From assembly GCF_014696345.1 (NCBI RefSeq), contig NZ_JACJPY010000001.1, forward strand, positions 1 through 42,500: 42,500 bases of DNA, given 5' to 3'. The position numbers were made by a program, and so were the translations under genes. Below, one piece after another: positions 15,378 through 29,501 of this stretch; positions within the stretch are counted from its first letter, which is position 1, and every line of letters begins with the position of its first letter. The notes beneath the pieces are model-generated. The model did not search any database, was not told where the DNA came from, and saw only the letters and a program-made list of their open reading frames with translations. This stretch comes from Pseudanabaena cinerea FACHB-1277. Its GTDB lineage: Bacteria > Cyanobacteriota > Cyanobacteriia > Pseudanabaenales > Pseudanabaenaceae.

Positions 15378-17099
<1,722 letters not shown>

Positions 17100-25289: not shown

Positions 25290-25421
25290 AAATTTCCACA
25301 ACTAAATAGCTCCAAAGACAGCAGGTGCTAATGGCTTAAATTCCTGCCGAGGTGACTTTCAAGAGATTTTCTTTTTTGAATATCTTTTATGCCTCGGTCT
25401 GTGAAAGAACGAGGCTTTTTT
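25290..25421 (+). ncRNA. Ribosomal protein L10 leader with attenuator
   Basis: Upstream of rplJ. It holds the typical L10-leader core CCAAAGACAGCAGGTGC ... TTCCTGCCGAGGTGA (about 25312-25355). The terminator is GCCTCG (25391-25396) paired with CGAGGC (25410-25415), extended by TCT/AGA inside, then TTTTTT (25416-25421). CCTCGG (25392-25397) can pair instead with CCGAGG (25347-25352) in the core, giving an antiterminator. So excess L10(L7/L12) binding the core would free the terminator and shut off rplJ-rplL. The Rfam family is L10_leader by recollection. Confidence 0.85.
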
Positions 25422-25446
25422 AATGACTTTAAAATTCGCAAATCTC

Positions 25447-26179: not shown

Positions 26180-26572
26180 ATGTCTGAAAAAATTGCTCAA
26201 ATCATTGAATTGCTTAAAGCTTTGAGCCTTCTTGAAGCTTCTGAGTTGGTCAAGGCGATCGAAGAAACCTTTGGCGTTTCGGCTGCGGCTCCTGTGGGCG
26301 GAATGATGATGGCTGCTCCTGCTGGCGCTGCGGCGGCGGTTGAAGAAGTTGAAGAGAAGACTGCTTTCGACTTGGTGCTTGACGAAGTTCCTGCTGACAA
26401 GAAGATTGCCGTCTTGAAGATCGTTCGCGAAATCACTGGCTTGGGCTTGAAGGATGCGAAGGAAATGGTTGAATCTGCTCCTAAAACTGTCAAGGAAGGT
26501 ATGCCTAAAGCTGATGCTGAAGCCGCCCAAAAACAAATCGCTGAAGCTGGTGGTAAGGCTTCTGTCAAGTAA
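26180..26572 (+). CDS. rplL: Ribosomal protein L7/L12
   Basis: 130 residues. N-terminal dimerisation helices ([20 protein letters not shown]), an Ala/Gly/Met hinge, and the C-terminal factor-binding domain [40 protein letters not shown]. It recruits elongation factors at the stalk. The last gene of the ribosomal block; two tandem terminators follow. Confidence 0.97.
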
Positions 26573-26601: not shown

Positions 26602-26716
26602 TAAATAAACTTAGAAAAGGAAGGGGTAAATCTAATTAATGCTCCTTTCTTTTCTGTAAGGAAGGGGTAAATCTAATTAATGCTCCTTTCTTTTCTGTTT
26701 TGAGTATGCTTTGTTA
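26602..26716 (+). terminator. Tandem rplL terminators; left direct repeat of the RM cassette
   Basis: The first hairpin AGAAAAGGAAGG (26613-26624) pairs with CCTTTCTTTTCT (26644-26655, one G·U). A 41-base unit (26617-26657) is repeated exactly at 26658-26698, giving a second, shorter hairpin. The whole segment, with TTTGAGTATGCTTT after it, recurs once at 28933-29005, behind the RM genes. Confidence 0.8.
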
Positions 26717-26800
26717 TTTTTTTCAGTGATCGCAGCGCTAACCATAGTTTTCACGGGGCTAATTTGTCCTAGTTACTAAGTTATACAAAACATAGAGATT

Positions 26801-27568
26801 ATGGGTCAAAAAATAGAACGATCGCAATGGCAACAAATCATCCAACAACAAAAAGATCAGATTATATTGCCTTCAGATTTTCCGAACGATGCCGAGTTAA
26901 GGCATACTTATCAAGTTGCCCGTGCGCTTGATCCACTACTTCTAGACTATTTCAATAATGTAAGTTTTACAATCGACAAAGAACAGATCCAACAAGGAAC
27001 TGAGTCCATACTAACTCGCTTCAAAGCAGAAATTTTAAAGGGTTTACACACAAAAACACTCTCAGATCAAACAGAAAAAAATGCTAAAAATCAGCGATTC
27101 AGTAATATTTTTGAATTCGCTGGATGTAGAAAACTTTATCTTTCAAGCATATACACTCGCGTTATTTCTGAGAATCTAGGGCATAAAATTGAAGAAATTG
27201 CAAATCTGAGTCCCTACATCTTTAACCCTGAATCCGAGCTAAGTATTTCCCTAAAAGGAATCGATTTCATTGTTTTTTGGCAGACAGACTTATATTATGG
27301 ACAAATGAAGACGAAAAAAGATACACTAACTGGAAGCCAGGGATCTAGGAGTATTAATGAATTACGGATTCATCCTCGCTCTATGTTTATCGCTGCTTTG
27401 GATATGGGAGCAGGTACAAATCCAAGTAAGAAGAAAGCTGAAGCAGCAGGAATTCGGCTAGAAGTTGGTGAATCATTTTGGTCTAAAATTGGTATTGGTT
27501 ATTCCGAGATGCTCAATAAAATTGCTGCCACCTTACGAGATATTGAGCAAGAACTCTATGATGAGTGA
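26801..27568 (+). CDS. Probable type II restriction endonuclease
   Basis: 255 residues, not recognised as a known enzyme. Position directly before a C5-cytosine methyltransferase and the motif KGIDFIVFW ... YYGQMKTKKDT argue for a PD-(D/E)XK nuclease: D155 and Q168-x-K170, with Gln where Glu is usual, a variant seen in some restriction enzymes. The middle part IFEFAGCRKLYLSSIYTRVI is helical. It would cut a site protected by the methyltransferase; the sequence recognised is unknown. The gene lies between direct repeats, so it was probably acquired together with the methyltransferase. 47 bases separate the two genes. Confidence 0.7.
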   Translation: MGQKIERSQWQQIIQQQKDQIILPSDFPNDAELRHTYQVARALDPLLLDYFNNVSFTIDKEQIQQGTESILTRFKAEILKGLHTKTLSDQTEKNAKNQRFSNIFEFAGCRKLYLSSIYTRVISENLGHKIEEIANLSPYIFNPESELSISLKGIDFIVFWQTDLYYGQMKTKKDTLTGSQGSRSINELRIHPRSMFIAALDMGAGTNPSKKKAEAAGIRLEVGESFWSKIGIGYSEMLNKIAATLRDIEQELYDE

Positions 27569-27615
27569 TGATTGTACGCTTAAAGTAATACTTACGATCT
27601 TTGTGATTTGACTTT

Positions 27616-28872
27616 ATGAAAGCAGTCAGTTTAGAAGTTGCGGCTAGTACATTGGGAGTAAAGCCCAGTGATATTTATACATGGGAAAAGAAGCAACTGA
27701 TCAGGAGTTATCTAGGCGATTGTAATAAAAAACGTGTGTTTGATCTGGAAGAAATTAACGCTTTTTATCAACGGCAGCACGGTAAAATCTTTCAGAATTC
27801 TTACAAAATTCTCAAGGCTCCAACGCAAACAGCACTTAATGCCATTGAATTATTTGCGGGGGCGGGTGGACTAGCATTAGGGTTTGAAAATGCGGGTATT
27901 CAGCATCAGCTTTTAGTGGAATACGATTGTGCCTGTTTGGAGACTCTGAGAAAAAATCGTCCCCAGTGGCCAATTATTGGGGCAGATATAAAAACGATCG
28001 ATTTCTCACCATTTTATCAAAAAATTGAGATTGTCGCGGGTGGCTTTCCCTGTCAATCTTTTAGTCATGCGGGCTATCGCCGTGGTTTGGAAGATACACG
28101 CGGCACGCTGTTTTTTGAGTTTGCTCGTTGTCTTCGAGAAGTCCAACCCAAGATAGCGATCGCGGAAAATGTGAAAGGATTATTGACTCATAACAAAGGA
28201 GAAACCCTTCAGATCATGTTAGATGTTCTTGAAGACCTAGGCTATCATACAGAGTATCAGGTAGTCAGAGCGCAATTTTTGGATGTACCACAAAAGCGAG
28301 AACGACTTTTTATTATTGCCACGCGCAAAGATTTAAACTTACAACCAATCTTTCCAACCGAAAATGATTATATAATTTCCCTTAGAGAAGCGTTAAAAAA
28401 TTGCCCCGCTTCGTCAGGATTAATTTACAATAAGCGTAAATACACTATTATGAAACAGGTTCCGCCAGGGGGCAATTGGCGGGATTTACCGATTGAGGTA
28501 CAAAAAGAATATATGAAAAACAGCTATTATCAAGGGGGGGGACGAACGGGTTTTGCCAAACGTTTATCATGGGATGAACCTGCTTTAACGGTAACTTGTA
28601 GCCCAGCACAAACCCAGACGGAGCGCTGTCATCCTGATGAAACTCGCCCATTAACGGTACGTGAATATGCAAGGATTCAAACATTTCCCGATGATTGGGA
28701 GTTTAGCAAAAATCTATCAAGCCAGTACAAGCAAATTGGTAATGCTGTTCCAGTCAATTTAGCCTATCATATCGGTCGTTGCGCGATTGCGACTTTAGAA
28801 AATAAAATACCTCTAAAATCACAACAGAAATCGCCTCTTATTCAATTAATAATTCCTGGTTTACAAACTTAA
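27616..28872 (+). CDS. DNA (cytosine-5-)-methyltransferase with N-terminal MerR-like HTH
   Basis: 418 residues. Residues 1-55 form a MerR-type helix-turn-helix (VSLEVAASTLGVKPSDIYTW, then VFDLEEINAFYQ), which could repress the operon's own promoter, as N-terminal extensions do in some RM methyltransferases. The catalytic part follows in standard order: motif I IELFAGAGGLALGFENAG (78-95), motif IV GGFPCQSFS with C146, motif VI ENV (184-186), motif VIII QKRERLF (226-232), a target-recognition region (about 250-345, VPPGGNWRDLP and GGGRTGFAKRLSWDEPALT), motif IX TVREYARIQTFPDDW and motif X IGNAVPVNLAYHIG (about 374-387). A run of eight G (28534-28541) encodes GGG at 307-309 in the recognition region and could slip. 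Specificity cannot be told from sequence here. Confidence 0.92.
   Translation: MKAVSLEVAASTLGVKPSDIYTWEKKQLIRSYLGDCNKKRVFDLEEINAFYQRQHGKIFQNSYKILKAPTQTALNAIELFAGAGGLALGFENAGIQHQLLVEYDCACLETLRKNRPQWPIIGADIKTIDFSPFYQKIEIVAGGFPCQSFSHAGYRRGLEDTRGTLFFEFARCLREVQPKIAIAENVKGLLTHNKGETLQIMLDVLEDLGYHTEYQVVRAQFLDVPQKRERLFIIATRKDLNLQPIFPTENDYIISLREALKNCPASSGLIYNKRKYTIMKQVPPGGNWRDLPIEVQKEYMKNSYYQGGGRTGFAKRLSWDEPALTVTCSPAQTQTERCHPDETRPLTVREYARIQTFPDDWEFSKNLSSQYKQIGNAVPVNLAYHIGRCAIATLENKIPLKSQQKSPLIQLIIPGLQT
28534..28541 (+). repeat. G8 homopolymer inside the methyltransferase gene
   Basis: Eight consecutive G encode Gly307-309. Gain or loss of one base would truncate the enzyme before motifs IX and X, so it is a candidate contingency tract, though eight G is near the lower limit for efficient slippage. 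Confidence 0.7.
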
Positions 28873-28932
28873 ACAAGGTTACTCTGTAACTGTCAAGTGA
28901 TTAAATTTAGTGATTAAATTTATTGTATTTTT

Positions 28933-29005
28933 TAAATAAACTTAGAAAAGGAAGGGGAAATCTGATTAATGCTTCTTTCTTTTCTGGTTTGAGTATGCTT
29001 TATTA
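28933..29005 (+). repeat. Right direct repeat of the RM cassette; terminator copy
   Basis: Matches the rplL terminator segment (26602-26716, minus one internal 41-base unit) with only a few changes, including the non-hairpin sequence TTTGAGTATGCTTT. The hairpin 28944-28955 / 28974-28985 terminates the methyltransferase transcript. Confidence 0.85.
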
Positions 29006-29052
29006 CTATAGTGGTTAAGAATACATTGATCACGAAAATATCAATAAATACT

Positions 29053-29226
29053 ATGAAATGGCGAGTTGTGCTTGAACCCGATCCAGAAACCCATGATTGG
29101 GCAGTTTGGTGTCCAGAGTTGTCTGGCTGCATGTCTGCTGGTGTTACTCAAGAAGATGCTTTAAGAAATATTTGTGAAGCTATAGAACTTTATTTACAGA
29201 CACAAAAGACACAAAACTCAATATGA
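29053..29226 (+). CDS. HicB-like small protein (orphan)
   Basis: 57 residues from ATG 29053. MKWRVVLEPDPETHDWAVWC and PELSGCMSAGVTQEDALRNI, then EAIELYLQ, match the partial RNase-H-like fold of the HicB antitoxin family (YxVxxExDxxG-W-V-CPELPG-x-S-G-T-EEA). No HicA toxin gene and no DNA-binding tail are present, so it is a solo HicB. Its stop overlaps the hisE start by four bases (ATGA), so hisE translation is probably coupled to it. A GTG at 29011 in frame would add 14 residues and is less likely. Confidence 0.8.
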   Translation: MKWRVVLEPDPETHDWAVWCPELSGCMSAGVTQEDALRNICEAIELYLQTQKTQNSI

Positions 29227-29501
29227 ATGATCCTTTATCAGAATTATTTGCGGTGATTGTCGATCGCCGCGAAAATCCGCAAGAAACTTCTTACACCTGC
29301 AAGCTATTTGCGGGTGGTGATAATAAGATTTTAAAAAAAATTGGTGAAGAGTCTGCCGAAGTGGTAATGGCTTGCAAGGATGATGATCCTGATGCGATCG
29401 CCTCTGAAGTCGCCGACTTGTTTTATCACACCCTTGTGGCGATCGCCCACCACCATGTTGATTTGCAATTGGTATATGACAAACTAGCCCAAAGGCGTTA
29501 G
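29223..29501 (+). CDS. hisE: Phosphoribosyl-ATP pyrophosphatase (HisE)
   Basis: 92 residues. Hydrolyses phosphoribosyl-ATP to phosphoribosyl-AMP, the second step of histidine synthesis. The MazG-like site is KKIGEESAEVVMACKDDDPD, with EVADLFYHTLVAIAHH. It lacks the N-terminal HisI (cyclohydrolase) domain that is fused to HisE in the HisIE proteins known to me from many cyanobacteria. So either a separate hisI or HisIE exists elsewhere, or this lineage has split genes. It is coupled to the HicB-like gene by the ATGA overlap. Confidence 0.9.
   Translation: MNDPLSELFAVIVDRRENPQETSYTCKLFAGGDNKILKKIGEESAEVVMACKDDDPDAIASEVADLFYHTLVAIAHHHVDLQLVYDKLAQRR

Follow-up and report, generated by a model that had tools for sequence, protein, structure and literature searches.

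Restriction-modification genes between direct repeats of the rplL terminator segment in Pseudanabaena cinerea FACHB-1277: insertion with long target duplication as the best reading

Genes and repeats between rplL and hisE

The window analyzed here is a stretch of 42,500 nucleotides from Pseudanabaena cinerea FACHB-1277 (contig NZ_JACJPY010000001.1, positions 1 to 42,500). In this window, the gene of ribosomal protein L7/L12 (rplL, 26180..26572, plus strand, stop codon ending at 26572), an open reading frame that aligns with rplL of the genus, is followed on the same strand by a gene for a putative type II restriction endonuclease (REase, 26801..27568, 255 aa) and a gene for a C5-cytosine DNA methyltransferase (MTase, 27616..28872, 418 aa). 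Downstream of this restriction-modification (RM) pair lie a HicB-like antitoxin gene of 57 aa without hicA (29053..29226, plus strand, PF15919 6e-9) and a hisE-like phosphoribosyl-ATP pyrophosphatase gene (29223..29501, plus strand, PF01503 and TIGR03188), which likewise flanks the locus on its right in those genomes of the genus that were examined. An ordinary autoregulatory leader, Rfam L10_leader (RF00557, 71 bits), was found at 25294-25430, before rplJ.

The RM genes are bracketed by two copies of one segment. The left copy (26602..26717, plus strand, 116 bp) carries the terminator-like hairpin of rplL, its basic 75 bp being lengthened by a 41-bp tandem copy inside them, and the right copy (28933..29006, plus strand) is 74 bp long and maintains the hairpin via G-U pairs. 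With the tandem copy collapsed, 69 of 75 aligned positions are identical, with five mismatches and one gap. The near-identical flanking segments described in the original prediction were thus recovered, as a unit about 1 bp longer than had been given, and TTTGAGTATGCTTT, the non-hairpin string that both copies were said to share, follows the hairpin in each of them. The homology breaks off abruptly at both ends, upstream at TAAATAAAC and downstream at TTTGTTAT. The exact 41-base tandem duplication (26617..26698, plus strand, units 26617-26657 and 26658-26698) was also as predicted; it occurs in the left copy only and is missing both in the right copy and in the empty sites described below.

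The two copies align locally with a score of 48, whereas 2000 Markov-shuffled pairs reached at most 29 and 689 pairs taken from the window at the same spacing at most 21; chance is therefore excluded for the direct repeats. A candidate extension of the repeat back into the end of rplL (26562 / 28890) was rejected, since an equally high score was reached in 5% of the shuffles and by 7% of segments from the window. When the whole genome (4.77 Mb) was searched with the segment, the left and right copies were the sole matches at E<0.1.

Folding energies were -20.3 kcal/mol for the first left hairpin (fold z = -6.6) and -15.6 kcal/mol for the right hairpin, and neither was called by a simple terminator scan. 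Judged by these energies, it is plausible that the RM operon may have gained a terminator-like end from the right copy. The proposal that rplL now has two hairpins held in part: this is one possible state, but when the left copy is folded in full, the minimum free energy structure is one nested hairpin (-36.5 kcal/mol), so that the tandem-duplicated copy may form either two hairpins or one nested hairpin.

Other repeats were recorded in the window. A second long direct repeat (1709-1882 / 2545-2726), matching over 104 nt at 93% and over a further 58 nt at 79%, flanks a pair of genes on the minus strand: a member of the TumE toxin family (1839-2225) and, probably as its antitoxin, a gene of 105 aa (2231-2548) with no Pfam match. 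The pair adjoins a CHAT-TPR gene. This repeat was considered as a target duplication and rejected as a later local duplication, because in two other genomes of the genus (G012 and G020) these genes occur with a single copy of the repeat. Repeats at 286-760 and 16329-16514 are protein-coding; they are TPR repeats of 102 nt and, in a low-complexity stretch, an array of 12-nt repeats.

The REase-MTase pair and the left end of the insert

The MTase matches PF00145 (3e-84), with a weak N-terminal HTH match, and its PCQ, ENV, QKRER and GNA motifs are all intact. It is 49-59% identical by tblastn, and up to 61% by profile score, to the MTases of Pseudanabaena Eco47II-type systems (HTH-C5 MTase), which are also similar in the central region, expected to hold target recognition. 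Since its closest relatives in the genus are mostly paired with Eco47II-type endonucleases and share this central region, recognition of GGNCC by the RM pair is possible by analogy. The Eco47II-type endonucleases belong to PF09553, whereas the REase of the window is of another, uncatalogued family. All genus genomes tested avoid GGNCC, with or without this RM pair, which makes site avoidance uninformative on the recognition sequence. No flanking repeats were found around the related MTases in the genus.

The REase carries the residues D155...Q168-x-K170 and has no Pfam family. Its sequence gave no match in Pfam, PADLOC or PDB, its sequence profile gave none in PDB, and NCBIfam returned only a meaningless sub-threshold match. 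Relatives of 29-49% identity were found in 18 of 385 other phylum genomes searched; none was present in the other 25 genus genomes or in any of the 37 other order genomes searched, and a search of genome_contigs, viral contigs, plasmids and phages gave none. A C5 MTase adjoins the REase relative in all 12 phylum relatives examined with extended flanks. The conserved core reads G-[IV]-D ... Q-[MLI]-K-T-x-K-x-T-L-T-G-S-Q, and the AF2 model is confident (pLDDT 86), with Cdn1, a CRISPR-linked nuclease, as its best, weak fold match (prob 0.97, E 0.05). Together, core and model suggest that the 255-aa gene probably encodes a PD-(D/E)XK restriction endonuclease with a variant motif. Within the family (GxD...QxKTxKxTLTGSQ core, relatives at loci L070-L081), two subgroups can be separated by gene orientation, with the MTase on the same strand or convergent. 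No clear flanking direct repeat was seen at the 12 related REase-MTase loci in 11 other cyanobacterial genomes, one of them at a contig end; long duplication is thus not a regular companion of this family. A gappy 63% flanking match at one of these loci (L071, E 2.5e-4) was judged to be AT-rich noise.

The DNA between the two copies, termed the insert here, has a GC content of 38.6% versus 43.6% for the window, and a 13-bp tandem repeat lies close to its right end (28896..28922, plus strand). Its leftmost 78 bp are not RM DNA. They represent the truncated 5' end of a Uma2-family gene, about ten codons (MVSAAITEKN) up to the junction with the duplicated segment, together with the upstream region (26715..26792, minus strand, ATG at complement 26743-26745). 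This was recognized from the one extra intergenic match obtained when the genome was searched with the insert: 26715-26775 is 90% identical, over 61 bp, to G000:C158:24090-24150 in the same genome, where a Uma2-family gene, intact and in the opposite orientation, has its first codons (MVSTAIAEKN) and its upstream region (Pfam Uma2 8e-21; orthologues in several other Pseudanabaena). Away from the junction, the Uma2 homology reaches as far as 26792, and the start codon of the REase gene is 9 bp away.

At the left junction, the target, which reads TTTGTTAT, and the Uma2 DNA, which reads CAGTATTTTTTTC, have TAT (26715-26717) in common, a 3-bp overlap. The truncated gene start and this overlap indicate that the insert is a fragment broken within a Pseudanabaena-type gene and joined at 3-bp microhomology, and hence that the moved unit was a DNA fragment containing the RM pair rather than a neat RM module. 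Two observations count against this: no genome was found in which the RM pair stands beside an intact Uma2 gene, so that the donor arrangement is unseen, and a donor search with the right end of the insert gave no convincing match. No inverted repeats were found at the insert ends, such as a self-mobile RM unit with terminal inverted repeats would carry.

Empty sites and the history of the spacer

The genus genomes were compared in a collection that holds one genome per species. In two of them, G004 (taken as Pseudanabaena sp. SR411) and G022, rplL is followed by one segment copy, hicB, hicA and hisE, without the RM genes. The original prediction had expected relatives of exactly this kind, with a single terminator segment between rplL and the HicB-like gene. 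On the 3' side of the segment, the empty-site sequence runs into hicB just as it does 3' of the right copy in the window, hicB being the first gene after the empty site, and on the 5' side it matches the sequence before the left copy. With both flanks matching, the DNA missing from the empty sites corresponds to the RM fragment plus one segment copy. Two segment copies without an insert were seen in none of the genus genomes examined.

The segment is not a common dispersed terminator: besides having no further copy in its own genome, it matches in 4 of the 26 genus genomes, in each solely behind rplL, and an IUPAC pattern of the segment run against 85,000 GTDB genomes found only Pseudanabaena sp. 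SR411. The left copy differs from that of G022 at six positions, and all six states are common to the right copy; the left and right copies also differ at six positions, all of which are changes in the right copy alone. Six states shared by both copies against the empty sites and six further changes confined to the right copy indicate, from sequence comparison, that the duplication most likely arose in the own lineage of the window genome. Divergence is 8% between the left and right copies and also 8% between the left copy and G022, and the event was therefore not recent, which counts against the insertion model.

In a tree of four genes (L10, rplL, hisE and PBP) the window genome groups with G006 and G010 and is not sister to G004/G022, to either of which it is about 81% identical over the four genes combined. 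The empty-site genomes are thus not the nearest relatives, which is a further point against that model. Neither G006 nor G010 has the full segment; in G006, a different terminator is present and only the last ~50 bp of hicB remain. G017 has one diverged terminator copy and no hicB. Similarity to G004/G022 is 91-92% in the segment and 89% in hicB, compared with 80-84% in the L10 and PBP genes, and this closer relationship suggests that the rplL-hisE spacer may have been exchanged between lineages. The spacer contains complete hicBA in G004/G022, hicB without hicA in the window and the hicB remnant in G006, so this spacer appears as a turnover site for small defence and addiction genes. In another genome, G009, the best rplL match (L037, G009:C12:22000-28000) consists of two partial rplL-like stretches in tandem (66% and 49% identity), and the remaining genes of the locus are absent there.

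Origin of the duplication

Insertion with long target duplication, as originally predicted, is supported as the best reading of these comparisons, because the repeats exceed chance, empty sites with one copy exist and the repeat is host target DNA. The lower GC content of the insert and the absence of the REase from the other genus and order genomes searched also speak for it, as does the Uma2 start with its intact paralogue. In its specific form, which we consider probable, a 2.2-kb fragment was inserted by illegitimate recombination between rplL and hicB and the 75-bp target was duplicated. The fragment (26718-28932) would comprise the broken-off Uma2 start, its upstream region and the adjacent REase-MTase pair, either imported or copied inside the genome. 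Its left end would have been joined through the TAT overlap, and the second copy would have been produced when synthesis or end-joining, having left the target, restarted some 75 bp further upstream, through the filling-in of widely staggered breaks or a backward template switch of a repair fork. Later, the left copy, serving rplL, would have remained conserved and gained the 41-bp tandem duplication, and the right copy, now forming the end of the RM operon, would have diverged by drift.

Direct repeats on either side could also be produced by single-crossover (Campbell-type) integration, in which a circle with the RM genes and one terminator segment recombines with the chromosomal copy, and the six differences between the copies could then predate the event, separating donor from host. 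We regard this as quite unlikely: the segment is known solely behind rplL in a few Pseudanabaena, the exact pattern of its core is absent from the viral contigs searched, no plasmid or phage record searched matches the REase, and the six states shared by both copies against the empty sites mean that the donor would have to come from the same lineage. Somewhat less unlikely is a local duplication preceding the arrival of the RM fragment between the copies, or the arrival of one copy with hicB by strain exchange. The segment is prone to tandem duplication, as its 41-bp copy indicates, the closer similarity of segment and hicB to G004/G022 hints at regional exchange, and the repeat around the TumE-family pair in the same window proved to be a local duplication and not a target duplication; however, two events are required, the insert has to hit the junction between the duplicated segments precisely, and no genome was seen to carry both copies without the insert.

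A coincidence of dispersed terminator-type repeats on both sides would fit the hairpin-forming, terminator-like nature of the segment, but it is refuted in this assembly by the single-locus occurrence of the segment and retains practically no probability. Self-directed mobility, in which the RM enzymes themselves drive insertion, for example via restriction breaks, is favoured by reports of RM genes accompanied by long target duplications (PMC3874152, PMC3031569, PMC1643837). The truncated non-RM gene start within the insert weighs against the RM module as the moving unit, however, and together with the TAT overlap it favours illegitimate recombination of a piece of chromosome over self-mobility. 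Terminal inverted repeats were not found, the related REase-MTase pairs of other cyanobacteria have no clear flanking direct repeats, and type II enzymes are not known to leave 75-nt overhangs, so that RM-driven insertion is very improbable here.

The original prediction had referred to insertion with long target duplication as a mode already described for RM modules, and the literature bears this out. Insertion of this kind was reportedly treated by Nobusato et al. in 2000 and by Furuta et al. in 2010. RM genes have been found inserted with long target duplications, variable in length and on the order of 100 bp (PMC3874152, PMC3031569), including an example in Helicobacter pylori (PMC1643837). 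The window resembles these cases in having an RM pair between direct repeats with a single copy in insert-free genomes, a repeat of that order (75 bp) and no inverted terminal repeats found. It differs in being located in a cyanobacterium at the terminator of a ribosomal protein gene, in the truncated start of an unrelated gene and the 3-bp junction overlap, and in the 8% divergence of its repeats, all on one side. The spacer of G004/G022 shares the place, the terminator segment and hicB, but has a single segment copy, hicA and no RM genes.

The mode of insertion is therefore known, and the window is a well-resolved cyanobacterial example with empty sites and a recognizable broken gene at one end, added to a pattern best known from Helicobacter pylori. 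Tentatively, and with somewhat less than even confidence, we suggest that long RM-flanking duplications might be a by-product of general illegitimate fragment capture, by microhomology joining and a backward jump of repair synthesis, the RM and addiction genes being merely what selection keeps; if so, the Uma2 start at the left insert end would be a trace of this general process. Because the broken gene start has a paralogue that is intact in the same genome, the mechanism of long duplication becomes testable, as microhomology-mediated fragment capture versus self-movement. The locus also points to an uncatalogued family of cyanobacterial restriction endonucleases.
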